Assembly: GCF_017051705.1 (NCBI RefSeq)
Contig: NZ_JAFIDJ010000001.1
Span: forward strand, 1,207,786 to 1,271,785
DNA: 64,000 bases
DNA from: Algoriphagus lutimaris
Lineage (GTDB): Bacteria; Bacteroidota; Bacteroidia; Cytophagales; Cyclobacteriaceae
Direction of reading: 5' to 3'
Shown here: one piece after another, positions 19,919 to 37,503 of the stretch
Layout of the letters: every line of letters begins with the position of its first letter
How positions within the stretch are numbered: the stretch's first letter is position 1
Program-made: the position numbers and the translations under genes
The notes under the pieces: model-generated
The model's database searches: none
The model's input: only the letters and a program-made list of their open reading frames with translations
Told to the model about the DNA's origin: nothing

Positions 19919-21175
19919 TCAAAATTCAAACTTGGCCATAAATTGAACTCGTTCTGCATTTCCAAATGCATCATTGGAAGTCCGTTGTGCTCCCCAGATA
20001 TATTCAGCACCAATAGAAAATCTCTCATCGAAATGACGGACAAGGTTTAAGTGTCCGACACCTCCTCTTTTTAGGGCAAATGGTGCTCTCGAATCAGGTG
20101 CATCCAGCCATCCATAAGCATAATTGAAATTGGACTCCAAGCCTTCTGCCCATCTGTGCATAAACCCAAGCATGATGGATTTAGCAGGTATGGCATCTAA
20201 TTTCCCTTCTGCATTTAATACCGCATTGGCATTACTTCCAATAAATGCAATGATGTTTTCTCCACTTGCATTACCCAAACTAACATTATAAGTGAAGTAG
20301 TTATTTTTCCCAATATATTGCCTTCCCGCTATTACCGCATCGATTTGAAGGACTTGATCTTTAGGGCCAGTAGTGCCTCCCTCCCATCGTAATTGGGCCA
20401 TACTAGAACCAAGGAACAACACTCCCGTTTTCCAGCGGTAGTCCATTTTCAATGCTAATAGCGGTAGCTTTATGTTTGCCTGACCATCAAAATTATTTGA
20501 ATTCTCTATACCTAAAGCTCCTAAATACTCTAGACCTGCAGCTATTTTGATTTTTTCGCTTACTTGTTTTTGATATCTAACTTGTACAGACCGTCCACCA
20601 AAAAGAGCATCGCCGGCTGCAAAGTCAATCATAAAGGCCATTGATTCCAAAAATGAAAGGGTAGTCCAGGTTTGACCAATGATAAAATCTCCAGCAGCAA
20701 GATAGGCATGCCTGATTCGAAACCGTTGATCTGTATTGAAAAAATCGCCTTCAAAGAATAATTGGATCGGAATTTTATCCGTAGCAAACCGCCTAATATC
20801 AATATTAACCCGGGTTTCTTTCACCAAGGCGTATAAGTACCCATCATTGCCGTAAGCAGCTTCTCCCTCCACAGGAATGGAGGACATTAGGAATTGGCTT
20901 TTGTCCCTCGTTCCGTCAAAATCATACAGCATATCTGCCTTTAGATACCCTCCAATTTTCATTCTTAAGTCTGTACCAAACATTGGCCACGAACCAAGAA
21001 AATCATCACTGGTCAGTCTTTCAGCCGCTGTTTTCAGAATATCTTCCTTGAGATCTGAATCCGGTATCACTAACTGGTTGTTAATTGTATCATTCGTATT
21101 CTTTCCCTGGGCAAAAACATGAAAAGACAATAAATTGAAGAAAAGAATTCCAAGAAGGAATGAATTGTTTTTCAT
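19919..21175 (-). CDS. DcaP-like outer-membrane porin
   Basis: 418 residues. Signal peptide residues 1-22 (ends VFAQ) are followed by a short helical segment and a barrel opening with GTDLRMKIGGYLKADMLYDFDGTRD, the signature of the DcaP-like trimeric porin family. Further typical motifs are FNTDQRFRIRHAYLAAGDFIIGQTWTTLSFLE and a C-terminal Phe. Known relatives admit dicarboxylates and other small organic anions. It is a single gene with its own upstream region and is the last of a run of minus-strand envelope genes next to the hydrolase operon, so it might import the products or substrates of those enzymes (inference). Confidence 0.88.
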   Translation of the reverse strand: MKNNSFLLGILFFNLLSFHVFAQGKNTNDTINNQLVIPDSDLKEDILKTAAERLTSDDFLGSWPMFGTDLRMKIGGYLKADMLYDFDGTRDKSQFLMSSIPVEGEAAYGNDGYLYALVKETRVNIDIRRFATDKIPIQLFFEGDFFNTDQRFRIRHAYLAAGDFIIGQTWTTLSFLESMAFMIDFAAGDALFGGRSVQVRYQKQVSEKIKIAAGLEYLGALGIENSNNFDGQANIKLPLLALKMDYRWKTGVLFLGSSMAQLRWEGGTTGPKDQVLQIDAVIAGRQYIGKNNYFTYNVSLGNASGENIIAFIGSNANAVLNAEGKLDAIPAKSIMLGFMHRWAEGLESNFNYAYGWLDAPDSRAPFALKRGGVGHLNLVRHFDERFSIGAEYIWGAQRTSNDAFGNAERVQFMAKFEF

Positions 21176-21443
21176 AACAATTGATTTTTAATCACTTGGG
21201 TCAATTTTTTAAACTAATTATTTTTAAATATTACTGAGAATGATTGTCAATACTAACTCATTTTTCATGTTAATTACCTTGGGAATATATCCCTCAAATA
21301 ATCAACCTGGCTTCATGTCAACTGGAGATTTCATTTACCTTTTACTTTTTATCCTTTAACGTCTCCCAAAAGTTGAAATAGAAACCCAACGTAAAACTCA
21401 CGTTCTGCCCAAAGTGGATGAAAACTTCTTAAAATCAATAAAC

Positions 21444-21758
21444 TTATTCATTTTCAAACCTCAAGCGTGAAATTCTATTTTTATGACTTGTTATTTCAAT
21501 AGCAGTAAGTTTCCCATTTCTATCTTCTTCTATAAAAAGGTCATCAACACTAGTAATTGAATGCTGATCATCCTCTAAAGAAATGAAGATGTCATTTCCT
21601 TTACCCTCAGAATCAAAGCTGATTTCTTTAAATTTTTCCTTCAATACCAATTCTTCACCTACCGCTTTTATTGACGAAAGACGTTCAAAATTACCTGAGG
21701 TAATTGACTGAAATCTTGATTGCCATTCCTCTTTAGGGACTTTTTTCCGGATATCCAT
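21444..21758 (-). CDS. DUF5335-like small protein
   Basis: 104 residues, no signal peptide, acidic and probably cytosolic. It opens with VPKEEWQSRFQSIT and ends with IEITSHKNRISRLRFE, matching the pattern of DUF5335 (P-x-E-x-W near the start, ISL..D and LRFE at the end). Function of the family is unknown. It lies 43 bases downstream of the HdeD-like gene on the same strand and is probably co-transcribed with it, which suggests a stress-response setting. Confidence 0.6.
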   Translation of the reverse strand: MDIRKKVPKEEWQSRFQSITSGNFERLSSIKAVGEELVLKEKFKEISFDSEGKGNDIFISLEDDQHSITSVDDLFIEEDRNGKLTAIEITSHKNRISRLRFENE

Positions 21759-21801
21759 GGTAATTCTAATTTAGTTCTTACTAATAGTTGAATGTGTATT
21801 A

Positions 21802-22335
21802 TTAAGATTTTGGTTTTAGGCCAAAGCCCTCAATTATGCTAAATACACCAATAATTAATAAACCAAAGCCCATCCAAGAAGTGACTGTAAGGACTCCCAT
21901 TAACATATTAAATGAAATAGAGTAGCCAAAAATGGAGATAATAATACCCCCAATCATCATCAATCCCCAGTTAGGAACTCCTGATTTTTTTGCTCCAAAA
22001 GAATCCACAAAGAGAAAGATACCTCTAACCATTAACCATATACCTATTACGAAAGGAATAGTAGATGCAGAAATAAGTGGATTTGAAAGAAAAATAATTC
22101 CGAAGATCAGATCCAGGATTCCTCCTACCAGTATCCATCCCCACTTGGGAGCCAATTTACTTATGGTAAAAGAACCTATAATTTCCATTATCCCCGTGAA
22201 TAAAAAACTTATTCCTATATAGATGGCCAACCCAAGCAATGTATCTAGAGGGTGTCTGAACACGAAAAAAGCAAGAATGATAAAAACTATTCCTTTTAAG
22301 ACTCCTAGCCACCAATATTTATTAGAAAACTCCAT
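21802..22335 (-). CDS. HdeD-like acid-resistance membrane protein (DUF308)
   Basis: 177 residues with six hydrophobic segments in three repeated pairs (about 10-60, 68-115, 125-172). Typical motifs are WWLGVLKGIVFIILAFFVF, GIMEIIGSF, GILDLIFGIIFLSNP and GVFSIIEGF. HdeD proteins are inner-membrane proteins tied to acid tolerance; mechanism is unknown. Probable two-gene operon with the DUF5335 gene. Confidence 0.85.
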   Translation of the reverse strand: MEFSNKYWWLGVLKGIVFIILAFFVFRHPLDTLLGLAIYIGISFLFTGIMEIIGSFTISKLAPKWGWILVGGILDLIFGIIFLSNPLISASTIPFVIGIWLMVRGIFLFVDSFGAKKSGVPNWGLMMIGGIIISIFGYSISFNMLMGVLTVTSWMGFGLLIIGVFSIIEGFGLKPKS

Positions 22336-22448
22336 TGTATATTAATTTTTGATTTGTTTATAAAAATTGAGCTCCTTGCCCAATTCAAAGAATGGTTAAA
22401 CTAAGATGCTATTCTCTCATTTGTTAAACTCCTAGAAATTAAGGGTTT

Positions 22449-23378
22449 TTACCAAGGTAGAGGTACAATCCTTCCTATTTGAAATCTAATTTGATGTTGT
22501 GGCCCAAAATTTTCAGGGCTTACCGCGTAATACCAATACTGAATCGAGAACTTCAGAGGATTTTTGCCTGCTTTAATCGTTTTAGACAATCCTGTACCTA
22601 TGGGAACAGATATTTTATTTCCTTTGGAGGCTTTATGATTAATTGTAAAAGTTGGTTGAGCCTGAATTTGCCATGCTTTTTTCAAATTAATGGTATAAAA
22701 ATATTGGCCCGAAGTAATATTTAATCGATAGTCCTGTCCAGTTTCATTGTCTGGGTAATAGATATCATTTAAAAACATAAAATCTTCAGGTGTTTGTATC
22801 CCATCATGATCTGCCGCAGAATTTTTATTTAAACTCCAAGATTGGGTAAGTAGTACTCCAAACATCCCCCAAGAAGTGTTTTTGCCTAAAAACATTTCAG
22901 GTCCAAGCATCCACCTTCCTGTACCGAGCTGTTTATTGGTAGCTGTTGGGGCGCTACCTACAATTCCCAATAAAGTAATCCATTTACTTTCCCAGGTAAT
23001 TCCATAAGCTAGATCAAATCCTATATCACCCAGATCAACACCTTGCTTTTCAAATTCTCCTGATTCATTAATAGTCGGTTGAGATATGATTATTGGAATA
23101 AGTGGTCTAAAGAAAATATTTTGACCAGGCTTTACCACATAGGGTAAACTTGGCTGGAAACTAACTTTAAATGCATTTTGAGAATTAGCCCCATTTAAAT
23201 CTCCCCCATAATTGATAAAATCAATGGGAAGTCCAAGTAACCCAATAGATGCATTTGGATTGGCCAATTTTTTAGCCACTTCTTCCATGCTTTCCTCTCC
23301 TTCATCTTGGCCATATACATTGATACTCAATACTGTCAATAAGACTAAAGAAGTAATTATTTGTATAATATTTTTCAT
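22449..23378 (-). CDS. Outer-membrane protein of the transporter/'neuromedin U'-labelled family
   Basis: 309 residues. Signal peptide 1-23 (ends VYGQ). An acidic start SMEEVAKKLANPNASI is followed by a barrel (FKVSFQPSLPYVVKPGQNIFFRPLIPII, GDIGFDLAYGI, GTGRWMLGPEMFLG, SWGMFGVLLTQSW), ending HQIRFQIGRIVPLPW. The LANP-S-I-L-P and FQP-LP blocks recall bacterial proteins that databases label neuromedin U or transporter, related to the MetA phenol-pathway channel family. Likely a 12-strand channel; substrate unknown. It sits directly downstream of the D-aminoacylase genes, 166 bases away. Confidence 0.65.
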   Translation of the reverse strand: MKNIIQIITSLVLLTVLSINVYGQDEGEESMEEVAKKLANPNASIGLLGLPIDFINYGGDLNGANSQNAFKVSFQPSLPYVVKPGQNIFFRPLIPIIISQPTINESGEFEKQGVDLGDIGFDLAYGITWESKWITLLGIVGSAPTATNKQLGTGRWMLGPEMFLGKNTSWGMFGVLLTQSWSLNKNSAADHDGIQTPEDFMFLNDIYYPDNETGQDYRLNITSGQYFYTINLKKAWQIQAQPTFTINHKASKGNKISVPIGTGLSKTIKAGKNPLKFSIQYWYYAVSPENFGPQHQIRFQIGRIVPLPW

Positions 23379-23544: not shown

Positions 23545-25179
23545 TTATTTTACAATCTTGTTTCTTATCGGCTGACCAGGATATACTCCTTCCAATACCT
23601 TTGAATCTTTTACGACGATGGTACCATTCACTAGGACATAAGGTATACCAGTAGAAGGTAAGCCTCCTTTTGCCATAGTCGCATGATCAGTTACTGTATC
23701 TGGATTGAAAATGGTGATATCAGCATCTTTTCCTTCTTGAACACGACCCTTATTTGCCATTTGTGCAACCCCATTTTCCTGTAAAAATTTGGCTTGCATA
23801 AAGCTCATTTTTGATATGGCCAACATCAATGGCATCAGATTCTTCTCTCGAACCAATCGTAAAGCTTTAGCATGAGAGCCCGCACCTCGAGGATGACCTT
23901 GAGTAGATTCAAATGGAGTAGACCAATCAAGAGCTAACTCCCCAGTTTCCGAGATAGACAAAGGCGCTGCATCAGATTCAATCATGGTTCTTGGATCAGC
24001 TAATGCACTAAGCATAATTTCTTCCTCCACACCTCCAAAGATGACAGACGCGCCCGGCTGTGTTTTCAACAACTCCTCATAACGTTCTTTGGTTAGTGGC
24101 TTCATGGTAGCTACTTCAATGATATCCTCATAACTTCTCCCCATATTCCTTTGATAATTATCTGGGGCCAAATAATCTGCACCTGCAACAGTGGCTCCTT
24201 GCCAATAAGGGTAAATGGCAGCAACTGTTTTTAATCCATTCGTTTTAGCTGCGTCCAGAAGGTCAATAGCTGTAGGTGTATAATTCAAGGCTTGCTGATG
24301 AATATGACTCACATACAATCCTCCACCATAGGCTGCCACGCTTGCCAGCATTTCTTGGGTTCCAAGGATACCAGTACTTGGTGGCATTTGACTGGAGAAC
24401 CTTCCATGAAGTACGGTACTTAGACCATGCTCTCCCATTAACCTTTGCCACATGATCGTTTCGCGGCTAGTCGTACCCCGGGTCATATAACCAGGCACTG
24501 CACCTAGACCTAGAGCCCCTTGCTCAATTCCTTCTTTAAGCATTGATTCCAATTCATTGATCTGCTCAGGAGATGGAAGAAATTCCGTCAAAGTCATATT
24601 GAAACCACTTCTATTATGAGGGTCAAACGCATCCAAAAGAATCGAAGCGGTATTTGACTTGTAATCCGGGTTTGCCAGTATTTCTCTCACCGCTGCTGCA
24701 GATACTGCAGCCCCATAATTAGTTTGGGATTTACCCTCCAATTTGGCATACCATGCATCTACGGGATATGCGCCCGCTTCCATGTCCAGGGGGGTAGTCA
24801 CCCCATCCCGCAAACTTAGTTTTTGCCCAAACGGGAAGTCCGAAATATGCGAATGAATATCAATAAATCCAGGGGCCACCACATGTCCTGTGGCATCGAT
24901 GGTTTCTTTTCCGGCAATAGCCTCCTCTGTAATCAGCGCAATTTTGCCGTCCAGAACACCTACATTTTGGACCCCGTCGAAATTCGTTTCAGGATCCATG
25001 ACGCGGCCATTCAAGATGACTAAATCAAATTCCGTATCGGATGGAACCGCCGATCCTGCCGTCGTATCACTGGCCTTTTCACCACACGCGGTAAAGAGCG
25101 CCATAAACATCAGACACAGGATACTCGTCACAGTTAGGCCATTTGCCTTTTTCATGTTATTGAATGTTTTATAAACCAT
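23545..25179 (-). CDS. N-acyl-D-amino-acid deacylase-like amidohydrolase lipoprotein, copy 1
   Basis: 544 residues. The signal peptide ends in lipobox LFTAC (Cys32). The amidohydrolase domain begins FDLVILNGRVMDPETNFDGV. Metal ligands are visible as H109 and H111 in PGFIDIHSH, then HIHQQAL (about 290) and SDAAPL (about 400). The C-terminal GKDADITIFNP-TVTD block is characteristic of D-aminoacylase. The family removes acyl groups from D-amino acids or acts on related cyclic amides. The ATG overlaps the stop of copy 2 (TAATG), so this start is favoured over an internal ATG at residue 9. A close tandem paralogue of the next gene; last gene of the hydrolase operon. Confidence 0.88.
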   Translation of the reverse strand: MVYKTFNNMKKANGLTVTSILCLMFMALFTACGEKASDTTAGSAVPSDTEFDLVILNGRVMDPETNFDGVQNVGVLDGKIALITEEAIAGKETIDATGHVVAPGFIDIHSHISDFPFGQKLSLRDGVTTPLDMEAGAYPVDAWYAKLEGKSQTNYGAAVSAAAVREILANPDYKSNTASILLDAFDPHNRSGFNMTLTEFLPSPEQINELESMLKEGIEQGALGLGAVPGYMTRGTTSRETIMWQRLMGEHGLSTVLHGRFSSQMPPSTGILGTQEMLASVAAYGGGLYVSHIHQQALNYTPTAIDLLDAAKTNGLKTVAAIYPYWQGATVAGADYLAPDNYQRNMGRSYEDIIEVATMKPLTKERYEELLKTQPGASVIFGGVEEEIMLSALADPRTMIESDAAPLSISETGELALDWSTPFESTQGHPRGAGSHAKALRLVREKNLMPLMLAISKMSFMQAKFLQENGVAQMANKGRVQEGKDADITIFNPDTVTDHATMAKGGLPSTGIPYVLVNGTIVVKDSKVLEGVYPGQPIRNKIVK

Positions 25180-26810
25180 TATTGTTTTACCAGGTCATTT
25201 TTAATGGCCTTACCAGGATAAACACCCTCCAAGACTTTTGAATCTTTGACTACTATCGTACCATTTACTACCACATAGGGTATACCGGTTGAAGGCAAAG
25301 CCCCTTGCTTAAAAGTAGAATTATCCGTCACGGTTTCCGGGTTGAAGATGGTGATATCGGCATCTTTTCCTATTTGTAACCGGCCTTTCTGGGACATGGA
25401 TTTTACTCCATTTTCTTCCAACCATTTTGCTTGCATGATGGTCATTTTTGAAATGGCCAGCATCAGAGGCATCAGCTTTTTCTCGCGTACAAGTTTCAAC
25501 ACCTTTGCATGAGTTCCTGCAGCCCGGGGGTGACCTGATACAGACTCAAAAGGCAGGTCAAAATCCATAGCTGACTTTCCTGAGGCAGGAATTACCAAGG
25601 GTGGTGCATCACTACCTATCACAGTTCTTGGGTCGGCTAAAGCACTGAGCATGCCTTCTTCTGAGATCCCCCCAAAAATAACCTGATCTTGTGGGCTCGT
25701 TCTAATCATTTCCTCATAACGCTCTTTCGTTAATGGCTGCATGTTTGAAATCTCGAAAAGATCGCCGTAATCACGACCCATGTTCTTCTGATAGGTTTCA
25801 GGCTTTAAATAATCAGCTGACACAATGGTTTGACCCTGATAATAAGGATAGATCTCCGCGAGTACCTTCATTCCTTTGTTTTGGGCATCTTCGATCAGAT
25901 CCAAAACAGCAGGTGTGAGATCAAGGGTTTGCTGATGGACATGATGAACATATAAACCACCTCCATAGATGCCTACACTGGCCAGGAACTCCTGAGTCCC
26001 TAGGATACCGGAAGTCGGAGGCATTTGGCTGGAGAACCGGCCATGAATGTAAACAGCCAGGCCATACTTTCCGGCTACCTGTTGCCACATGATCGTTTCT
26101 TGACTTTTCGTTCCATTGGTCATGTAGCCTGGTAATCCACCAATCCCAAGGCCACCCTGTTCGACCCCCTCTATAAACATTTGCCTCATTTGATCCAACT
26201 GTTCTGGAGTTGCCAATAGAGTCGCAAACTGAAGATCAGGATTACTTTCCGTATCGGCATTCGTGATATCCATTACGAAGGAACCTGAATTGGTATCGTA
26301 ATTTGGATTGGCAATCTTCTCTCGAATTCCTGCTGTTGAAACGGTGGCGCCGTAGTTGGTTTGTGAACTTCCTTCCAAGGCGTTATACCACATATCAATA
26401 GGATAACCGCCAGCTTCCATCTCCAAAGGAGTTGTAACACCATCGCGAAGAGCTATCCTTTGACCAAACGGAGTATTTGCAATATGATTATGGAAATCAA
26501 TAAATCCCGGAGCTACCACATGTCCTGTGGCATCAATAGTTTCCTTTCCTGAAATAGACTCCTCTGTAATCAGTGCAATTTTGCCATCCAAAACACCGAC
26601 ATTCCGTACCTCGTCGAAATTCGTTTCAGGATCCATGACGCGGCCATTCAAGATGACTAAATCAAATTCCGTGTTGGATGGAACTGCTGATTCTAAATTC
26701 GTATCGCTGCCCTTTTCTGCGCAGCTTATCAATAAAGTTGAACTCAAAAGACAAAGGAAGAATAACCTTGAAAGATCTTTTGTGTAACTTAATTTATTTC
26801 GTCTATTCAT
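25179..26810 (-). CDS. N-acyl-D-amino-acid deacylase-like amidohydrolase lipoprotein, copy 2
   Basis: 543 residues, clearly a tandem duplicate of its downstream neighbour: the first 100 mature residues are nearly identical (VPSNTEFDLVILNGRVMDPETNFDEV) and DNA similarity extends over that stretch. Lipobox LLISC puts it on a membrane facing the periplasm or surface. Metal-binding HNH of PGFIDFHNH, HVHQQTL and SDAPPL are retained. Divergence is greatest between about residues 150 and 210, which may alter substrate choice. It starts 20 bases after the M20 peptidase and shares one base with copy 1, so it is an internal operon gene. Confidence 0.88.
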   Translation of the reverse strand: MNRRNKLSYTKDLSRLFFLCLLSSTLLISCAEKGSDTNLESAVPSNTEFDLVILNGRVMDPETNFDEVRNVGVLDGKIALITEESISGKETIDATGHVVAPGFIDFHNHIANTPFGQRIALRDGVTTPLEMEAGGYPIDMWYNALEGSSQTNYGATVSTAGIREKIANPNYDTNSGSFVMDITNADTESNPDLQFATLLATPEQLDQMRQMFIEGVEQGGLGIGGLPGYMTNGTKSQETIMWQQVAGKYGLAVYIHGRFSSQMPPTSGILGTQEFLASVGIYGGGLYVHHVHQQTLDLTPAVLDLIEDAQNKGMKVLAEIYPYYQGQTIVSADYLKPETYQKNMGRDYGDLFEISNMQPLTKERYEEMIRTSPQDQVIFGGISEEGMLSALADPRTVIGSDAPPLVIPASGKSAMDFDLPFESVSGHPRAAGTHAKVLKLVREKKLMPLMLAISKMTIMQAKWLEENGVKSMSQKGRLQIGKDADITIFNPETVTDNSTFKQGALPSTGIPYVVVNGTIVVKDSKVLEGVYPGKAIKNDLVKQ

Positions 26811-26829: not shown

Positions 26830-28386
26830 CTACAACGCTTCCAGGTTTCCAAATATGGTATAAAAAAAGCCTATCGTTTTTCCATATTCCTCCACCAAGA
26901 TTCGCTCATTTACTCCATGAAATCCTTTAAATTCTTCCGTGTTTTCTAATTGAATACCCGTGATGGTATATACATCTGGTGCAAAAGATCGGGCCTGAAA
27001 ATGCTTGGAGTCAGAACCCCCGATTACAAAAAATGGTGAGACTAATAGATCATTTCCCCAAATCTGACGGATGGTCTTTTCAAGCATATTGTAGGCATCA
27101 TTCCCTACTTCGGCAATATTGGTGGCCGGTGTAGAGGCAGATATATCCCGAACAGTAATACGATCGTCTTGGATTGCATTTTTCACATGTTCAATAATTA
27201 CTTCAGGAGTATCTCCTGGCATAGGCCTGAAATTCACAACAGCAGTAGCAGTTGGTGGTAATACATTATCCTTTACCCCTGCATTGAACATCGTTACTGC
27301 AATGGTAGTATGAAGCATGGCCCTGGTCAATTGGTTTTGGGCCATCGTCTCAATGAACTGCTGTTCCAAATCTGTAATCTCATCATCTTTTCCAAAGGCT
27401 ACCGCTGCGTATAAAGGTTGATTGTCTTTGTCCAACTCTGGGCCCATATAGCGATATTGGGAACGAACTGCGGGATGAATCCTATAAGGAAACTGCGCAT
27501 CTTCCAGCTTAGTAACAGCTTCAGCCAAAATACCAATATTGGATTCAACTGGAGGTTGAGAAGAATGTCCTCCTATTCCATTCATCTCCAATTCCAGACT
27601 GATAAAGCCTTTTTGAGCAATACCAATCAAAGCGGTATTCTCTTTAATTCCAGGAAAAATACCTGGAGTTAATGGAGCTGATTCATCCATGACATAAGCA
27701 AATCGTTTGATCCCTCGTTGCTCCAATACATCAGCAATGTATTTGGCCCCTTCAGGACCTCCTACTTCCTCATCCTGACCAAATACAAAATAGATCGTGC
27801 GGGAGGGTTGCCAGCCCTCTTTAATCCTCATTTCGGCAGCTTCCAAGATGCCATGAATTTGGTTTTTATCATCCAGCACGCCACGACCCCAGATATAGCC
27901 ATCTTGAACGGTTCCGGCAAATGGGTCTACTTTCCATTGATCCCTAGAATCCGCTGGAACTGGCACCACATCCTGGTGGGCATAAAATAAAGCTGGTTCT
28001 AAGGATGGGTCTTTTCCCTCCCAAGTATATAAAAGACTATATGGGCGAGGATCTCCTAACACTTCCTTTTTTAAAGTCTTATGAACATTGGGATAAGCTT
28101 CTTCTATAAACTTGTGATAATCCTCAAAAGCTTTGGTATCAAAGTCTTCTCGATCTTGATTGGAAATGGTAGGAAAAGTGACCGCTTTAGATAGTCGTTG
28201 TACAGCTCCATCTAGATCTACATCTACAGAGATTTGATCTACACCTGTCATTTGCAAAGAAGTAAAATCTTCTAGGTAAACGGCTTCAGTATCTTGATCA
28301 GAGGAACTGGAATTTTGACCGCAACTTCCCAATAAGGAAACAGCCCCTATTCCAGCATAGAAAATTACCTTGAATAAAGATTTCAT
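26830..28386 (-). CDS. M20-family carboxypeptidase/amidohydrolase lipoprotein (PM20D1-like)
   Basis: 518 residues. Lipobox LLGSC (Cys22). The M20 di-zinc catalytic domain shows H137-x-D139 in FYAHQDVVPV, GRGVLDDKNQ (Asp172 bridging) and GQDEEVGG with the catalytic Glu pair at 206-207. A dimerisation domain follows and a late His in SDSKHF. Length and sequence order match the PM20D1/carboxypeptidase S group, which makes or cleaves N-acyl amino acids and dipeptides. It stands between amidohydrolase genes on the same strand, consistent with degradation of acylated amino acids. TAAGTTTG at 28529-28522 upstream could be a -7 element for an extra promoter. Confidence 0.9.
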   Translation of the reverse strand: MKSLFKVIFYAGIGAVSLLGSCGQNSSSSDQDTEAVYLEDFTSLQMTGVDQISVDVDLDGAVQRLSKAVTFPTISNQDREDFDTKAFEDYHKFIEEAYPNVHKTLKKEVLGDPRPYSLLYTWEGKDPSLEPALFYAHQDVVPVPADSRDQWKVDPFAGTVQDGYIWGRGVLDDKNQIHGILEAAEMRIKEGWQPSRTIYFVFGQDEEVGGPEGAKYIADVLEQRGIKRFAYVMDESAPLTPGIFPGIKENTALIGIAQKGFISLELEMNGIGGHSSQPPVESNIGILAEAVTKLEDAQFPYRIHPAVRSQYRYMGPELDKDNQPLYAAVAFGKDDEITDLEQQFIETMAQNQLTRAMLHTTIAVTMFNAGVKDNVLPPTATAVVNFRPMPGDTPEVIIEHVKNAIQDDRITVRDISASTPATNIAEVGNDAYNMLEKTIRQIWGNDLLVSPFFVIGGSDSKHFQARSFAPDVYTITGIQLENTEEFKGFHGVNERILVEEYGKTIGFFYTIFGNLEAL

Positions 28387-28601
28387 AATTTTTTTTTAAT
28401 TGTGATTGTCTTTTTTTAATTATTTAAGGCCTGTTAGTTAAAGTTGTTCCAACCCTAGGATTCATAGTTATTAAAAGCATGAAAATTGAAGAAAATATCC
28501 ATTTTCGTATTTGATAAAACTCAAACTTAACCATCGTTTGTATCCTTTTGGCACTTCCAAATGAATCGTTTATAATTCGTTGGACTGACAATTTCAACCA
28601 T

Positions 28602-29241
28602 TTAATCCAAGGTGTTTTTATAAATTTTACCGTCTTTCATAATGATCTTTAAGTTGTTTTCCGGATCAGCAATCAGATCTAGGTTCTCAAGCGGATTACC
28701 GTCCACCAAGAGCAAATCAGCTAATGCACCTTCCTTGATCACACCATTCTCCCCAGGGTAAGGATCCCTAGGCCCACTCATCTTGAAGAGTTCGTAATTG
28801 GTGCTGGTTGCCATTTTTAACACCTCCCATGGTTCGTACCATCTTTTGAGTTTTGCCAGAGACTTTCCCTATTTGGCTGCAATCTCTGGCCCATTTTGCA
28901 AATCCGTACCAAAAGCAACCTTCAGATCATACTTTTTGGCCAATTCGTAGGCTTTTTCCGTGCCTGCGGTCATTGTTAAGTATTTTTGTTGTTCGAGCGA
29001 CCATTAATGTTCTACCTTGAGCATCTATAATGGTTGAGTTCTCATCTTGGGTTATCATGATCCCTTCAGCAATCCGTGCTATTTTATTTCCTTGGATCAG
29101 AACATCTTTTCCTTCTACCAACTTATTTGTTCCGCCGGAGATTTTGGCATTGGTAATTAAGATCTGTTTTTGAACCTCTTGTGCGTAAATACCAATACTT
29201 AGGACTGCGAATAAGAGAATCATTGATAACCCTTTTTTCAT
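28602..29241 (-). pseudogene. Imidazolonepropionase-like amidohydrolase, broken by internal deletion and a nonsense codon
   Basis: Remnant of a third copy of the two amidohydrolases upstream. The 5' part (29241 to about 29010) has the signal peptide (ends IYAQ) and the beta-sandwich up to IIDAQGRTL. There it should continue PGLIDAHWH, but instead jumps out of frame to sequence equivalent to residue about 320 of the paralogues (EQQKYLTMTAGTEKAYELAKKYDL, then VAFGTDLQNG). About 240 codons, including the metal-binding HxH, Lys and two His ligands, are gone. A TAG at 28871-28869 then interrupts AAK-GKSLAKLKRWYEPWE before the intact tail MATSTNYELFKMSGPRDPY to IYKNTLD. It cannot be active. Confidence 0.9.
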
Positions 29242-29271: not shown

Positions 29272-30606
29272 TCAATTATTCAGGGTATTCTTATACACCT
29301 TCCCATCCTTCATAATCACTACAAAATTGTTTTCAGGATCTGCTATCAATTCCAAATTCTCCAAAGGATTACCATCTACGATTACCAAATCAGCATAAGC
29401 CCCCTCTTTTACCACGCCCAATGGACCTTCTTGGTAAGGATGTCTCGGTCCACTCATTTCCAATAAACGGGCATTTTCAGAAGTATAAATTTTCAAAGCT
29501 TCATAGGGAGTAAACCATTTTCCTAATCGAACGACATATTCATTTTGTTGCAAGGCAGTAGTCGGTCCAAATAGGTGATCTTTTCCCACTGCAATATTCA
29601 CCCCTACTTTTTTGGCAAGAGGGAATACTTTGTCAATGGCTTCTACGATTCCTTCAAACTTTTCTTGACTCAAAGGATTATCCCAAGTCATATCCTCTTT
29701 GAACACAGGCTGTAAAGAAAGCCAAGCTCCTTTTTCCTTCATCAATTGTAATGTTTCCTCTGTCACGAAAAAGCCATGTTCAATACACATTACCCCAGAT
29801 TCTATGGAGGTACGTACCCCTCGGTCTGTATAGACATGTGAAGTAACATACGTATTATAGTTGGTGGCCTCTTCTACAACAGCTTTGATTTCGTCCACCG
29901 AGTATTCGCTTACATCGAGTGGGTCAAATTCAGAAGCAACCCCACCTCCCGTAGTGATCTTGATTTGAGTGGCACCCATCTTTAAGATGTCTCGAGTTCT
30001 TAGCCTAACTTCATCTACTCCGTCCGAGGTCATTGCCATCCAATTTCGCTCCCAATAGTTCATGTAGTCTTTATCACGAGGTACTTCAAGTTTGCCATAG
30101 TAATCTGCATGACCTGAGGTAGGGCTCATAAACGGACCTGAGGGAAGAATCCGGTGTCCTGGATATTCACCCGAGTCAATTAACTTTTTAATAGCAAATG
30201 GATTGCCTCCTGGATCCCTGACGGTGGTAAATCCACGTAATAAGGTTTTTTCAGCTCCAGTCATACTTCGGATAGCCACTTCAGGCATATCTCCCTGATT
30301 TGCAAACAAAACAGCAGCTGGTGTATAAGCATAAGTGGTATGCCAGTGAGCATCAATCAAACCAGGGATTACTGTTCTACCTCCAGCATCGATAACGGTT
30401 GCATCATTGCTTGCTGAAAGGTTTTTACCTATTGTCTTTACTAGATTTTTTTCAATTAACACATCCACTCCTTCGAGCAGCTGTTCATTAACACCATCAA
30501 AGACATTGGCATTCTTGATTAGAATGATTGGATCTTTTTGCTGACTAAATACGGCCAAACTGGAGAATACCAGCGCTAAGGTTAATGTGATTTTTAAAAG
30601 TTTCAT
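29272..30606 (-). CDS. Secreted imidazolonepropionase-like amidohydrolase, copy B
   Basis: 444 residues. Signal peptide 1-21 (ends VFSQ). Amidohydrolase_1 domain with PGLIDAHWHTTY (HxH), TQIKITTGGGVAS with the carboxylatable Lys, YVTSHVYTD, IEHGF and VGKDH, and the closing GALG-type tail ADLVIVDGNPLENLELIADPENN. Best fit is the imidazolonepropionase-related / Xaa-Pro dipeptidase (prolidase-like) subgroup. Those enzymes hydrolyse N-acyl amino acids, prolyl dipeptides or organophosphates. Compared with copy A, the conserved GTD near the last metal ligand is GKD. It is the second gene of the operon, 24 bases after copy A. Confidence 0.88.
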   Translation of the reverse strand: MKLLKITLTLALVFSSLAVFSQQKDPIILIKNANVFDGVNEQLLEGVDVLIEKNLVKTIGKNLSASNDATVIDAGGRTVIPGLIDAHWHTTYAYTPAAVLFANQGDMPEVAIRSMTGAEKTLLRGFTTVRDPGGNPFAIKKLIDSGEYPGHRILPSGPFMSPTSGHADYYGKLEVPRDKDYMNYWERNWMAMTSDGVDEVRLRTRDILKMGATQIKITTGGGVASEFDPLDVSEYSVDEIKAVVEEATNYNTYVTSHVYTDRGVRTSIESGVMCIEHGFFVTEETLQLMKEKGAWLSLQPVFKEDMTWDNPLSQEKFEGIVEAIDKVFPLAKKVGVNIAVGKDHLFGPTTALQQNEYVVRLGKWFTPYEALKIYTSENARLLEMSGPRHPYQEGPLGVVKEGAYADLVIVDGNPLENLELIADPENNFVVIMKDGKVYKNTLNN

Positions 30607-30630: not shown

Positions 30631-31962
30631 TTATTCTAGAGTGTTTTTATAAACCTTGCCATCTTTCATGATCAACACAAAGTTCTTATCAGGGTCAGCG
30701 ACCAGACTTAAATCTTCCAAAGGATTACCATCTACAATGATCAGATCAGCATATGCTCCTTCTTTTACCACACCTAAAGGACCCTCTTTGTAAGGATGTC
30801 TAGGACCGGACAATTCCAACATTCGCGCATTCTCTGAGGTTGCCATTTTCAGTGCTTCATAAGGGGTAAACCAACGTGTTAGCTTTGCAAGTAATTTACC
30901 TTGTTTCGCCGCGTTTTCTGCTCCCATAAACAAATCCGTTCCAAAGGCCATATTCACACCTATTTCTTTAGCCAGTTGGTAAACATTATCAGTTCCTTTT
31001 GTAACCTCAGCAAACTTTCTATTGGACTCTGGGTTTGGAAACTTATCTGCATCCTCATCATTCAAAATAGGCTGCGTGCTCAACCAAACCTCATTGTCTT
31101 TCATCATCTGAAGTGTTTCTCTACCCATCAGCATCCCATGTTCTATACTTTTGACACCAGCTTTTACGGCTATCTGTATCGCATCGTCCGTGAAAATATG
31201 TGCGCCAACATAGCTGTTGTAACTTTTTGCAACATCTACAATCGCTTCCATCTCTTCGAGCGAATACTGTCGTACATCGATGGGGTCATAACTGGAAGCA
31301 ACGCCCCCTCCACCGGCAATTTTAATCTGCGTCGCTCCTAGCATAAATGCTTCACGGCTTCGCTTGCGGACTTCAGAAACTCCATCGGCTATTGCAGTCA
31401 TTCCTACTTCCTCCCAATAGGTCATATTTCCGATTTTATCAGGAATTTGATTAGGCAGGCGATAGTCAAAATGCCCACCTGTTTGGCTAATCATAGGTCC
31501 GGAGGGAAGTATGCGTGGCCCCACTACCAACCCTTCATCAATAAGTTTCTTTAGGCTAAAAACGGTCCCTCCCATATCTCTTACAGTCGTAAAACCTCGC
31601 ATGAGCGTTTTTGGAGAGGCCAAAGTACTTCGAATACCCACTTCAAAGGCATCCCCAGAAAGCACGAATGTCATAGGCAGTTCTGCCAATGCCATGTGCC
31701 AATGGACATCAATCAATCCGGGAATTATTGTTTTTCCTCCTGCATCGATAATGGTAGCATCATTTCCTGCGGATAGATTCTTTCCTATAGACTTGACTAA
31801 ATTACCTTCTATAAGAATATCGACGCCTTCTTGAAGCTGCTCATTTACCCCATCAAATACATTGGCGTTTTTAATAAGTACAATGGATGGTTCTTCTTGA
31901 CTGAAAACTGTCAAACTGAACAGTACCAAAGCCAAGGTAAAAGTGATCTTAATAAATTTCAT
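30631..31962 (-). CDS. Secreted imidazolonepropionase-like amidohydrolase, copy A (first gene of operon)
   Basis: 443 residues. Signal peptide 1-21 (ends VFSQ). Complete set of amidohydrolase motifs: PGLIDVHWHMA, TQIKIAGGGGVAS, YVGAHIFTD, SIEHGM, NMAFGTDLF, and the tail ADLIIVDGNPLEDLSLVADPDKN. A close tandem paralogue of copy B and of the broken copy C. Periplasmic or secreted metal-dependent hydrolase, probably on N-acyl amino acids or small peptides. As the first gene it carries the long upstream region with the putative HTCS operators. Confidence 0.9.
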   Translation of the reverse strand: MKFIKITFTLALVLFSLTVFSQEEPSIVLIKNANVFDGVNEQLQEGVDILIEGNLVKSIGKNLSAGNDATIIDAGGKTIIPGLIDVHWHMALAELPMTFVLSGDAFEVGIRSTLASPKTLMRGFTTVRDMGGTVFSLKKLIDEGLVVGPRILPSGPMISQTGGHFDYRLPNQIPDKIGNMTYWEEVGMTAIADGVSEVRKRSREAFMLGATQIKIAGGGGVASSYDPIDVRQYSLEEMEAIVDVAKSYNSYVGAHIFTDDAIQIAVKAGVKSIEHGMLMGRETLQMMKDNEVWLSTQPILNDEDADKFPNPESNRKFAEVTKGTDNVYQLAKEIGVNMAFGTDLFMGAENAAKQGKLLAKLTRWFTPYEALKMATSENARMLELSGPRHPYKEGPLGVVKEGAYADLIIVDGNPLEDLSLVADPDKNFVLIMKDGKVYKNTLE

Positions 31963-32281: not shown

Positions 32282-32318
32282 GTTTTACTTATCGTTCTTA
32301 TTGTTTGACCTATTGTTT
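32282..32318. promoter_or_regulatory. Operator pair A (21-bp direct repeat), putative HTCS site
   Basis: Two half-sites with cores TATCGTTC (32290-32297) and TATTGTTT (32311-32318), exactly 21 bp apart, each preceded by GTTT-AC-like bases. A third core copy, TATTGTTT, lies in between at 32299-32306. Pairs B and C show the same half-site and the same spacing. AraC-type DNA-binding domains, including those of HTCS, bind such direct repeats. Confidence 0.6.
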
Positions 32319-32457
32319 CAAGTACTTTATTACTCAAAAACATCAGATGGACTTACTAGATTTTCTACTAATTAGAGTCTTCTACTTGATTCAGGGCAAA
32401 CCAAGTCAAAGTCACCTTATCATTCATTTTTGATAAAACCTAAAGACAAAAAAGGTC

Positions 32458-32494
32458 ATTTGATCTATTGTCCATTTTGGTTTACTTAGTGTTT
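32458..32494. promoter_or_regulatory. Operator pair B (21-bp direct repeat)
   Basis: Half-site cores TATTGTCC (32466-32473) and TAGTGTTT (32487-32494), 21 bp apart, with upstream TTTGATC and TTTACT. The weakest pair by match to the consensus TTTACYTATTGTTY, but the spacing is identical to pairs A and C. Confidence 0.5.
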
Positions 32495-32564
32495 AAACTA
32501 CAGATACAATTAAAAAAATATCTTAAAGGAGTTCAATCAGAAATACCATGTTCATCTATGAATT

Positions 32565-32601
32565 TATTTACCTATTGTTCCAAAAAGTTTACTTATTGTT
32601 T
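32565..32601. promoter_or_regulatory. Operator pair C (21-bp direct repeat), overlaps the HTCS stop codon
   Basis: Half-site cores TATTGTTC (32573-32580) and TATTGTTT (32594-32601), 21 bp apart, preceded by ATTTACC and GTTTACT. This is the best-matching pair. The second half-site runs across the stop codon (32591-32589) of the HTCS gene, so its last codons are also operator-like sequence. Confidence 0.55.
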
Positions 32602-35600
32602 GAGCAATGGATTTCCCGGTATTTTTGAGGAGACACCCCAAAATCTTCAGAGAAGATTCTTGAAAAATAAGAAAGACTCTCTATCCCCACTCCCAATGCC
32701 ACTTGACTGATATTTAAATCAGAATCACAGAGTAATTCGGAAGCCTTCTCCATACGAACTTGGCGAATAAAATGAGAGGTTGCCTTATTGGTAAGTGATT
32801 TGATTTTATTATGGAGTTGGGTCCGGCTCATAAAGGCATGGGAACAAAGCTCCGGCACTCCAAAATCTGAATTATCTATATGAGCAAGAATGATTTCGCG
32901 AAGCCTAATAATAAACTCATCTTCTTGCTTTACTTTTTCATCCTGGACAGGAGGAAGTGATTTCAAATTACTATACCGTTCTTGAAGGCGCTTTCTTTGA
33001 GAAAGCAAATTATGAAGTTGAATCAACAGCTCCCTTTTATCAAATGGTTTGGCCAGATAAGCATCTGCCCCCTTCTCCAATCCAGTAATTCTAGAATCTA
33101 TATCTGCCTTGGCAGTTAATAAGACAATAGGAATATGACTGGTTTTAACATCCGATTTTAAAACATTGCATAGGGTAAATCCATTGGCTTTAGGCATCAT
33201 GACATCACTCAAGATAATGTCCGGCACATGTTCCAAAGCCATATTAATTCCCATTTGACCATCCATTGCAAATTGAATTTGAAAATCATCCTCTAAGCAA
33301 CTTGCTAAATACGTTCGTACATCTGCATTGTCTTCCACAATCAATAATGATGGATGTTGAGAATTAGCGTTTTTATCGGAAATATATTCAAATGAAGCAG
33401 CTTCCTCTGCTATCATCCATTCTATGGTAGATTGTTTGAACTCATCCAAACCAGCTTGACGGGTAATTGGAAGGTTAATACTAAAGTTGGTATGTTTGCC
33501 TTCGATACTGTTTACATGAATTTTCCCGTTCAAGATTTTTACTAACTCCCATACAAGAGTTAAACCAATTCCTGTTCCACTACCTGTTCTGCTTTGTTCA
33601 TCATCTACCTGGTAAAACCGATCAAAAATATGGTTCAATTTATCTTGTGGAATTCCTATTCCATTGTCTTCCACAGTTAGCTCATAATAAGGTGGTTCAA
33701 CATCCTCGAAGGCCTGAACAGTTACCGAAACGGTTCCATTTTTCGGAGTAAACTTGATTGCATTCGTCAGGAGATTGGACAGGATATGAAGTAATTTTTC
33801 CGGATCATAATCCAAAACTAATGATGGAGTATTGGAATCAAATTTCATCGCAATCCCTTTTTCCTCTGCCAAAGAATGAAAGGATTCTATCACGTATTGA
33901 ATATGCTTCAATACATCTCCTTGAACCATATGGATTTTCTCTGGTCCAGATTCCAATTTCCTCAACCTCAGGATCTGATTGATCAAGTTGAGCAATAAAC
34001 GAGCATTTCTCCTGATTAATCCTTTTTCTTTTTCATTCTGTTTGATTTGCTCGGCTACCCCCAGAATAACCGTCAAAGGTGTCCTGAATTCATGGGAAAT
34101 ATTAGTAAAAAACCGGGATTTAGATTCGTCCAGTTCCTGCATTTGAACAGTTTGTTGAAAGATAGTTTCTTTATCTTTTTGAATTTTAGAAGTCCGGTGT
34201 TGAACTTCAATTTCCAAACGATTTCTTTCTGTCTGAATTCTTCTTATATAAATCCATGAAACAATCAGAAAAGGGATTGCGACCAAAGCGTAAAACCACC
34301 ATTGATTGTAAAAATACTCTTTAACCAGAATTGGAATTTCTAGAGGTACAAGTGACTGGTTTGACTTAAAATCAATCCCCTTAACCTGGACTATGTAGTT
34401 ACCCGGAGGAATATTATTAATAGTCATTTGGGAAGCAGATCCAATGTTAATCCAAGGAGCGGAAGACTCTTGCTCATTGGAGGATCCATTAGGAAGTAAT
34501 CGATACATGTAGGCGTGTTCCTTGATATTCCCATAATCAGATAAAGCAAAGTCAAGCATCAAAAAACGCTGAGCAGCAGGAATGACTAATGGCTCATCCA
34601 AATCATATGAACCCTGTCTATACACATTCTTTTTTTCTTGATCATTATAATATTCCAGACCTGTTAGATAAATAGAATTGGGTTTCTTTAATTCAGTTTT
34701 CTGAAGTACTGCCTCAGGATCCAACAAAATTGTTCCCGCATATCCTCCAAAAACCATTCTACCATCAGGCAATCTATAACTTGACTGTTTGTGAAAATTA
34801 TTATGAATTAACCCATCCTCTTGATTTAATTCTAATAACACCGTTCCTGAAGAATCCAAAACTGAAATTCCATTGTACGTAGAGACCCAACAGTTTCCAT
34901 CATCATCAGATAGGATTCCTACCACAGTATTATTTGCCAAGCCCTGGTCCTCTGAAATTTGCTTGATTGTATTAGTCTTAGGGTCAAAAATTAGTAGACC
35001 TTGACTTGCTGTTCCTAACCATAGTCTACCTTTTTCATCTGGATGAATATTCAGAATATTTTGATTCTGTAAAGAAATAACCTGAAGGAAATGATCCACT
35101 TCATTGTTCTTTAGGTCAATGGACCAAAGCCCGTTTTGGGCTCCTACCCATAACAAGGAATCCCCTTGTAAAAAAAGATCATTTACTTTCGCATGGATAC
35201 TAAAAGGTTCGCTTTCATATAAAAAAGGCCTTTTTGCTTGAGTAGTCAGATTAAAAATGAATAAGTCACCCATTCCATCTCCTTCATCTCCATTATCTTT
35301 GAAAAATGCAACCTCCTGATTATTCAAAAAAACAAACTTTTCAAATTTGGTATCTGTAGGTAAGTAATCTGTTTCATTGGTTGAAATGTCATACCATTGT
35401 AAACCCACTCGTTTTTCCAAATAAAAATCAGCTGACATCCATACTTTTCCATCCCTTAGAATGATAGATGAAAATGGTCTGGCTCTTAAAAAATCCCCTC
35501 CTGTTAACCTACTCCATTTCCATTCTCCATCTATCCAATCGTATCGGTAAACTTGCATTTGGGAATTGAAAATAAGAGTAGAATTATCAATACTTGTTAT

Positions 35601-36875
35601 TTGGCCGCGTTTATAACTAGGGTTTCCATGAATTTTAGTAATATTCAGTTGAGTTTGTATATCCATAAAGGCAATTCCTACCCTTCTCTGAGAAGAACCT
35701 ATTTCGGTTTTAAAATCATCACTGAAAAAATTTCCTTCATGTTGGAAATCGTATTCGTAGGAAAAACTTAGCTTTTCAATTAAATTACTGTAATTCAGGT
35801 AATTACCATCAACATCAATCAAAAAGGCCTGACGATTTGAGGTAGGGGTTGGATAACTATAAGGCTCGGGATATCCAGAGACTAACAATAGGTTTCCTTT
35901 TTTATCTTTTGATAAAAAAACACGAAGAACTTTTTCATCTCCTTCATCGCGTAAAATCTCCTGGTTTAGGCCAGCATTGGTAGAAAGATGGAGCGGTTTA
36001 GTGTCCAAATCAAAAAAACCATTCTCCCTTCCAAGAAAAAGTAGCAATCGATTTTGCCCAATTGAAATCAGTTTCCACTCAAAGCCACTGTCGTTATCAG
36101 CCAACTCTTCTTTTTGAATTGGAGGAATACTTTCAAATTGAGTCCACGGAATAAATTCGATTTGCTTTGAATTTAAGTCAGCCTTAACGAGTCCTTTTTG
36201 CTGATGAAAGAACCATGCATGATCATTTAAAATAGCCAAGGAATAGGCGAAAGTTTTGGGTGGAGTTGGGGATAATTCCTCCTCAAAATTGAGTTCGATA
36301 GAACTAATTTCCTCATGTTGATTTTTATACAACCTAATTAAATGATACTTGGCGGTCTTAAGTTGACGTTGATTCTCACCTTCCAAGGTCAAAGCCATAA
36401 TCCCCCCTTGAGAATCCTCCACCAAATTGAGTAGCTTGGTACCCACATCTAAGGTTATAAAGTATTGCTCCTTTAGATCAGGATGCCAATAAAAAATCAT
36501 TTCATTTTGGTCATCTGCTCCAAAAAGAAAACCATCAGAAGTTACACCCATTACATGCCAAATTGGGTTTAGATCACCTTTTTTGATCCAGTCTGGCTTT
36601 ATCTCATAAAAAAAACTTTTTTCCCCATCAAACTGAAAGAAACTCATTCTCAACTCCCTTGCATCTTCTTGGCAAGGATTTACCCAAAGTCTACCTTTAT
36701 TATCCAAAAAACTATTCCCTAAGCAATTCACTGCAAGGCCATCGGAAAGGGTGAAATTTTGAATATTTAATATGGAAGGAGAGGGACTGTAATCTCCACT
36801 AGCTTGCTGAGAAAACGTAATTAGTGGACTTCCAATAATAAGCAGTATGAAGAAGATACTTTTCAAATAAACCAT
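32589..36875 (-). CDS. Hybrid two-component system regulator (HTCS)
   Basis: About 1428 residues. Start taken at the ATG at 36875, giving a clean signal peptide (MVYLKSIFFILLIIG..., ends TFSQ); the frame is open 23 codons further. Numbering from that longer frame (start 36944): periplasmic two-component propeller repeats to about 790 (GRLWLGTASQGLLIFDP, GNCWVSTYNGISVLD), Y_Y_Y domain about 800-870, one membrane helix about 880-900, HisKA with His951 in ISHEFRTPL, HATPase with N1061 and DNGIGIP / GTGIGLTL, receiver domain 1195-1311 with phospho-Asp1247, and AraC-type DNA-binding domain 1345-1451. Such proteins sense a periplasmic ligand and bind DNA in one polypeptide. The adjacent operon encodes amidohydrolases and a peptidase, not a SusCD glycan system. 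Confidence 0.93.
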   Translation of the reverse strand: MVYLKSIFFILLIIGSPLITFSQQASGDYSPSPSILNIQNFTLSDGLAVNCLGNSFLDNKGRLWVNPCQEDARELRMSFFQFDGEKSFFYEIKPDWIKKGDLNPIWHVMGVTSDGFLFGADDQNEMIFYWHPDLKEQYFITLDVGTKLLNLVEDSQGGIMALTLEGENQRQLKTAKYHLIRLYKNQHEEISSIELNFEEELSPTPPKTFAYSLAILNDHAWFFHQQKGLVKADLNSKQIEFIPWTQFESIPPIQKEELADNDSGFEWKLISIGQNRLLLFLGRENGFFDLDTKPLHLSTNAGLNQEILRDEGDEKVLRVFLSKDKKGNLLLVSGYPEPYSYPTPTSNRQAFLIDVDGNYLNYSNLIEKLSFSYEYDFQHEGNFFSDDFKTEIGSSQRRVGIAFMDIQTQLNITKIHGNPSYKRGQITSIDNSTLIFNSQMQVYRYDWIDGEWKWSRLTGGDFLRARPFSSIILRDGKVWMSADFYLEKRVGLQWYDISTNETDYLPTDTKFEKFVFLNNQEVAFFKDNGDEGDGMGDLFIFNLTTQAKRPFLYESEPFSIHAKVNDLFLQGDSLLWVGAQNGLWSIDLKNNEVDHFLQVISLQNQNILNIHPDEKGRLWLGTASQGLLIFDPKTNTIKQISEDQGLANNTVVGILSDDDGNCWVSTYNGISVLDSSGTVLLELNQEDGLIHNNFHKQSSYRLPDGRMVFGGYAGTILLDPEAVLQKTELKKPNSIYLTGLEYYNDQEKKNVYRQGSYDLDEPLVIPAAQRFLMLDFALSDYGNIKEHAYMYRLLPNGSSNEQESSAPWINIGSASQMTINNIPPGNYIVQVKGIDFKSNQSLVPLEIPILVKEYFYNQWWFYALVAIPFLIVSWIYIRRIQTERNRLEIEVQHRTSKIQKDKETIFQQTVQMQELDESKSRFFTNISHEFRTPLTVILGVAEQIKQNEKEKGLIRRNARLLLNLINQILRLRKLESGPEKIHMVQGDVLKHIQYVIESFHSLAEEKGIAMKFDSNTPSLVLDYDPEKLLHILSNLLTNAIKFTPKNGTVSVTVQAFEDVEPPYYELTVEDNGIGIPQDKLNHIFDRFYQVDDEQSRTGSGTGIGLTLVWELVKILNGKIHVNSIEGKHTNFSINLPITRQAGLDEFKQSTIEWMIAEEAASFEYISDKNANSQHPSLLIVEDNADVRTYLASCLEDDFQIQFAMDGQMGINMALEHVPDIILSDVMMPKANGFTLCNVLKSDVKTSHIPIVLLTAKADIDSRITGLEKGADAYLAKPFDKRELLIQLHNLLSQRKRLQERYSNLKSLPPVQDEKVKQEDEFIIRLREIILAHIDNSDFGVPELCSHAFMSRTQLHNKIKSLTNKATSHFIRQVRMEKASELLCDSDLNISQVALGVGIESLSYFSRIFSEDFGVSPQKYREIHCSNNK

Positions 36876-36944
36876 AGATATTTTCCTGCGCCTTGAATGA
36901 AAGCTGAAAGATATTTTGTCTTTAAAGGGTCTATAAATAGACAA

Positions 36945-37204: not shown

Positions 37205-37503
37205 CAACGAGTTAAATGGGAATCATGAAATGAGAAGTGGGAAGTACGAAATACGAAATTCGATGATAATAATATTTGCTTATCGCGCCCAAGGCCTATC
37301 TCAGGAGTGAAGCAACTCTATTTCAGCGAAGCTATATATCGGGACCGAAGCGACCCTGTCTCATCCGAAGGATATATTTTAGGAACAAAGCGACTCTACT
37401 TCGCCGCCTGCCTGCCGAAGGTAGGAAGCGTATCTCGCCGAAGCCATATCTCATGAGCGAAGAAACTATATCTCAGCGCAACTATCTCTCGCCGAAAGCA
37501 TAC
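37205..37503. repeat. Interspersed CGAAGC-rich intergenic repeat, copy 2
   Basis: Related to 17533-17812. It opens with GAAGTACGAAATACGAAATTCGA, holds GCTTATCGCGCC at 37278-37289, then about ten imperfect units of 18-24 bases built on TATCTC-AGCGAAGC and GCCTGCCTGCCGAAGG. The open frame across it (37276-37545) reads as repeated YLRSEAT/YISGPKR-like peptide and is an artefact of the repeat. It ends at the stop of the MFS gene. Confidence 0.65.

Follow-up and report, generated by a model that had tools for sequence, protein, structure and literature searches.

In Algoriphagus lutimaris, a 14-bp direct repeat occurs as three pairs between the gene for a hybrid two-component regulator (HTCS) and the first of a series of hydrolase genes, the half-sites of each pair lying exactly 21 bp apart, and the question raised by this locus is whether these repeats are the operators through which the regulator controls its neighbours. 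Our answer, put together below from the form of the repeats, their recurrence beside orthologous regulators and their position relative to a promoter element, is that they would be operators of the adjacent HTCS, a reading to which we assign a probability of roughly 0.8.

The repeat pairs and their gene neighbourhood

The HTCS gene lies on the minus strand (32589-36875) of the 64,000-nt stretch of DNA analysed here (the window). Its listed open reading frame extends to a TTG at 36944, and the ATG at 36875 gives an N-terminus that by eye resembles a signal peptide. The Pfam domains Reg_prop, HisKA, HATPase_c, Response_reg and HTH_18 all score over their cut-offs, while Y_Y_Y falls below its own (23.5 vs 26.6 bits); one chain thus unites a propeller sensor in the periplasm with HisKA, HATPase_c, a receiver and an AraC-type HTH, as in other HTCSs. 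On the same strand lie two related amidohydrolase genes (30631-31962, starting with an ATG at 31962, and 29272-30606), for both of which the nearest NCBIfam model is an Xaa-Pro dipeptidase, below cut-off, an M20 family peptidase gene (26830-28386), two more amidohydrolase genes (25179-26810 and 23545-25179, together 23545-26810) that score over the cut-off of NF006560, and genes for a 309-aa protein without Pfam match, a DUF308 protein and a DcaP-type porin (19919-23378), relatives of each of which are found near one or two other HTCS orthologs. We assume from gene order and strand that the hydrolase-side genes form one operon. Among the 11 window proteins scanned with Pfam there is no SusC, SusD or glycoside hydrolase, and on these proteins the locus does not qualify as a susC/susD polysaccharide utilization locus. 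A third amidohydrolase is an open frame in the related genome G018 (L054 17731-19065), where the window has a remnant short of ~700 bp (~28600-29240, limits by eye), and degenerate short repeats resembling TATCTC/GCCGAAG, also seen by eye, lie upstream of the HTCS gene (37270-37500).

Read toward the hydrolase genes on the minus strand, the pairs come in the order C (32601-32567), B (32494-32460) and A (32318-32284). Pair C, AAACAATAAGTAAA-N7-GAACAATAGGTAAA (plus-strand 14-mers starting at 32567 and 32588), matches the 14-mer TTTACYTATTGTTY without mismatch in either half-site; pair A, AAACAATAGGTCAA-N7-GAACGATAAGTAAA (starts 32284/32305), has one mismatch in each; and pair B (starts 32460/32481), a degenerate pair and the weakest of the three, has three and one. 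All three pairs had been described in the original prediction, made from the sequence alone, and the extra core that it placed within pair A is likewise present (32299-32306). A direct repeat of similar sites with a spacing of about 21 bp is the form expected of an HTCS operator.

It is the pairing, rather than the number of single half-sites, that stands out. Single half-sites with up to three mismatches occur 66 times in the window against 51.3 +/- 6.9 times in shuffles (66 is reached in 3 of 100), and a genome-wide count at up to two mismatches was set aside as uninformative, with 406 occurrences vs 491 for the reversed pattern. Pairs, on the other hand, occur three times in the window at 21-bp spacing and never at 14-20 or 22-31 bp, and none at 21 bp appears in 100 dinucleotide shuffles of the window. 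In a weaker, consensus-free lag test on a 326-bp region, which takes the maximum over lags 10-40, the count observed at lag 21 is attained by 8 of 500 shuffles. The original prediction had called for a genome scan for 21-bp pairs; among half-sites with at most one mismatch, to which the scan applies, the 4.7-Mb genome holds 21, five of them within the three pairs, and none of the other 16 has a partner at +/-21 (the best shows 7 mismatches of 14). One half-site with a single mismatch, without a partner at 21 bp, lies inside the second amidohydrolase gene (30424-30437).

Like pairs beside orthologous regulators

At an E-value of 1e-200 the HTCS is matched in seven of 73 genomes of the genus, the window's own included, and among 396 genomes of the class there were two matches, the window's own and one covering only query residues 29-977. 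More distant orthologs came from a profile search of genome contigs with a five-protein alignment, an earlier one-protein search having given no relative. The orthologs used are 86% identical in G018, 71% in Algoriphagus zhangzhouensis DSM 25035 (G026), 51% in Algoriphagus sp. Ww129 (G001), 50% in Cytophagales Ww83 (L059), 46% in Cyclobacteriaceae HF-Dia38 (G029), and 40-41% in Saprospiraceae IP29b_bin.15 (L063, L065) and Winogradskyella pelagia (L068).

When a half-site matrix, built from 12 half-sites of the window, G018 and G026 operators, was run over 143 loci (1.55 Mb, overlaps included), 30 pairs scored above 14 bits and 24 above 20 bits, the next best reaching 17.7. All 24 belong to HTCS ortholog loci and, as these loci overlap, represent 12 distinct operators, five of which (window B, G029, G001, L059, L063) lie outside the training set. 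The G029 pair scores higher at a spacing of 20 bp than at 21, and the Winogradskyella pair, which lies ~95 bp downstream of the HTCS stop and scores below 14 bits, was found by eye. Scanned without any motif, 45 HTCS loci (these orthologs together with paralogues) gave 52 counts at lag 21 vs 17 over the eleven other lags from 16 to 27, overlapping 14-mers being counted separately. In G018, both half-sites and the spacer of pair A are identical to those of the window, and blastn between the window and G026 returns, besides an HTCS match that continues through pair C to 32567, only 39 bp at 90% identity, situated on pair A ahead of the first amidohydrolase gene. Such pairs are thus conserved beside orthologous regulators, and the original prediction, which a lack of conservation in these regions would have refuted, is not refuted by this comparison. 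Target genes recur as well, for example an M20 peptidase, 82% identical, downstream of such a pair in Winogradskyella, and the gene 3' of the HTCS varies among orthologs (e.g. a large HYR-domain protein in L063).

Other AraC-family proteins likewise bind direct repeats with a ~21-bp spacing, and the pairs might be the sites of such a regulator encoded elsewhere, the HTCS being a mere neighbour. This seems to us quite improbable, as the pairs follow the orthologs of this particular HTCS through Algoriphagus, Saprospiraceae and Winogradskyella, the half-site variant changes along with the ortholog, and no score above 1.8 bits occurs at six amidohydrolase-homolog loci that have no linked HTCS ortholog. 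The adjacent HTCS, we infer, very probably binds the pairs.

Pair C runs over the HTCS stop codon (32589-32591), as had been predicted. Across the nine orthologs whose 3' ends were compared (window, G018, G026, G001, L059, G029, L063, L065 and L068), the stop falls within the distal half-site in the first seven; L065, with another repeat just 3' of its stop, was scored as non-overlapping. Four loci cut by contig ends (G081, G084, L066, L067) were left out of this set, as was L069 (37% identical), with which the count becomes seven of ten: considered as a further case of stop overlap, L069 was rejected, its HTCS frame ending at 3598-3600 and its repeat beginning ~65 bp later. In five of the seven the stop is a TAG or TAA inside AACAATAG/AACAATAA and the proteins end in EQ or KQ, and in the window and G018 the other reading frame is used, the protein ending NNK at a later TAA. 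As the half-site is kept in two reading frames, it is the DNA rather than the peptide that is conserved. The site is variable in detail: pair C of G026 has a 22-bp spacing, and at the HTCS stop of G018 only the half-site at the stop remains, its partner being degenerate.

Similar arrangements occur at several further loci. In G081 (L141 537-837) a degenerate HTCS 3' end reading LEQ and stop has a weak pair (score 13.6, spacing 20 bp) directly there, before an amidohydrolase gene. At a second HTCS of the Saprospiraceae contig (L065 14189-14260), the stop is closely followed by another type of repeat, with a GCGCAT core and lag 21, and further downstream by CACCTTTG and then a HYR-domain protein. 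Finally, HTCS paralogues of the genus (L037, L042, L043, L046) carry repeats agreeing at 11 or 12 of 14 positions at lag 21 or 22, no more than ~50 bp past the stop.

Promoter geometry, proposed activation and locus history

The minus-strand element TACATTTG (32262-32255), which the original prediction had named as the -7 element of a promoter, is an exact match to TAnnTTTG, the consensus of the Bacteroidota primary-sigma -7 box (PMC7366714; PMC9723704), and lies 21 bp past the proximal half-site of pair A. A weak -7-like element, TATTTCTG (32545-32538, minus strand), with five of the six fixed bases, is found 21 bp past pair C, and no such box is present 21 bp from pair B. If the -7 box is taken to occupy -12 to -5 (PMC9723704), the proximal half-site spans about -47 to -34; pair A thus ends at about -34 and adjoins the -33 position, which the original prediction had it cover.

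This geometry is widespread among the operators. Of the 14 operators aligned, 10 have at least five of the six TAnnTTTG bases in a box placed exactly 21 bp past the proximal half-site (window A and C, G018 A and D, G026 A, G001, L059, G029, L063 and L068). These operators are not independent, as window, G018 and G026 share descent, and in some of them the distance was first spotted by eye, so that a binomial calculation exaggerates the significance. The match is exact in window A and G018 A and five of six in the other eight, often CAnnTTTG, and the four operators without the box are window B, G026 C and, in G018, both the site at the HTCS stop and the copy of C. A strict count is 9 of 14, the better 20-bp register of G029 placing its box at 22 bp. 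The same box was matched four times across the at least 36 other offsets tried, and in shuffled intergenic DNA it arises at 1.4% of positions. In A. zhangzhouensis pair C is directly followed by a hairpin and a run of T, which by eye look like a terminator (L055 6590-6640).

We hypothesize that the HTCS senses a ligand which, judging from the targets, would be a peptide or amide rather than a glycan, that its receiver is then phosphorylated, and that two AraC-type domains would come to lie side by side on half-sites 21 bp, or two helical turns, apart. Since a -7 box of the TAnnTTTG type follows the proximal half-site at 21 bp, and the half-site itself reaches about -34, beside the place of a -33 element, the bound HTCS would aid RNA polymerase where a promoter lacks a good -33 box. 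The site at work in activation is probably pair A, which would drive the amidohydrolase/peptidase genes. Pair C, kept with a weak -7 box and holding the HTCS stop in its distal half-site, is probably an old site of this HTCS family at the end of the HTCS gene, perhaps weak here, and pair B may be decayed or auxiliary. The AraC-type operator reading with which the locus was first put forward agrees with the published form of HTCS sites, with the recurrence at orthologs and with the -7-like box at a fixed distance in most operators.

Because all three pairs share orientation and spacing, it could also be argued that they jointly serve one promoter, through looping or as a cooperative array, and that their clustering in 320 bp is functional. 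In G018, however, the counterparts of C and A are ~1.8 kb apart with an ORF between them, and another pair, D, precedes C by ~6 kb and stands in front of other genes. None of the pairs found in G018 and G026 corresponds to pair B, and joint action of the three appears unlikely.

The window and G018 differ by a rearrangement of the locus. In G018 the 3' end of the HTCS occurs a second time, ~6 kb past the HTCS, in degenerate form and with a copy of pair C (L054 12711-12868). The segment in between, which may be a gain in G018 or a loss from the window, holds pair D, followed by two genes lacking any Pfam match and two whose match is of the Omp85 type. The second 3' end places the site at a rearrangement junction, and it is conceivable that the repeats are leftovers of recombination or duplication that have no regulatory role. 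We consider this very improbable, given the -7-like box 21 bp away in 10 of the 14 operators, the maintenance of the half-site in two reading frames, and the conservation of pair A in isolation in G026.

The repeats, read as regulatory sites, may have moved along with their neighbours. Synonymous divergence between the window and G018 is mosaic in the HTCS gene (32589-36944 vs L054 2362-6717): at four-fold sites it is 0.09-0.12 in the receiver and HTH and 0.11 in the first 100 codons, and rises to 0.28-0.50 over codons 100-1200, in the sensor and kinase. The two amidohydrolases stand at 0.07 and 0.10, and the comparison genes at 0.18 (part of rpoB), 0.27 (a nearby 784-aa gene) and 0.43 (a TauE-like gene adjoining the locus). 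Such uneven divergence suggests that a tract holding the HTH, the operators and the hydrolases was exchanged. A more speculative extension, which we think doubtful, is an HTCS family in which regulator gene and operator are welded together by the stop codon lying in a half-site, where an HTCS bound at pair C might also block the end of its own transcript or feed back on it, and where sensor, binding domain and operator might travel between genomes as a single cassette able to capture new targets.

Comparison with known systems

In Escherichia coli, the AraC-type domain of AraC occupies the direct I1/I2 half-sites, 21 bp apart, beside a promoter. The present pairs have in common with I1/I2 the direct half-sites, their 21-bp distance and the adjacent promoter. 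In contrast, AraC is a soluble arabinose-binding protein, whereas the regulator here fuses kinase, receiver and HTH in a membrane protein and the promoter belongs to the TAnnTTTG type.

Nearer relatives are found among the HTCSs of Bacteroides thetaiotaomicron, the predicted operators of which are direct repeats of two conserved sites at a mean distance of 21 bp, for which a dimer on one face of the DNA was proposed (Ravcheev et al., 2013; PMC3878776). As direct repeats averaging 21 bp have been published for predicted HTCS operators, the kind of site is known, and the present pairs resemble it in both direct repetition and distance. The two differ in their surroundings, as that study required neighbouring susC/susD-like genes (PMC3878776), and the present HTCS is accompanied by amidohydrolases, an M20 peptidase and a DcaP-type porin. 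The main text of the same paper does not contain the terms 'stop codon', 'promoter element' or 'transcription start'. According to its legend, a supplementary figure elsewhere marks predicted sites of the HTCS BT0366 together with -7 boxes on shared promoters, and may show a comparable geometry (PMC5061871). In the passages and titles that it covered, a literature search, for which the 2013 study was the main source on HTCS sites, found no mention of a set distance between HTCS operator and -7 box, nor of an operator that includes an HTCS stop codon. No title in it dealt with HTCS operators of Algoriphagus or with an operator across an HTCS stop.

Binding itself has been measured for members of the same protein class at glycan loci in Bacteroides: receiver-HTH proteins of BT4124 and BT4663 shift promoter DNA from adjacent loci in gels (PMC11253607), and ChIP-seq of BT0366 places HTCS binding next to the regulated genes (PMC3404733). 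The operators described here, by comparison, are predicted from sequence. They provide, away from gut Bacteroides and the usual glycan loci, a concrete candidate operator whose distance to the promoter is fixed, as well as a simple rule for HTCS targets in Bacteroidota genomes, namely a 21-bp repeat, with a -7 box another 21 bp on, close to the HTCS stop. Should other HTCSs follow this rule, targets could be assigned to many orphan regulators by sequence alone. The type of site is thus shared with the known systems, and it is the placement across the HTCS stop and the non-sugar target that are less usual.
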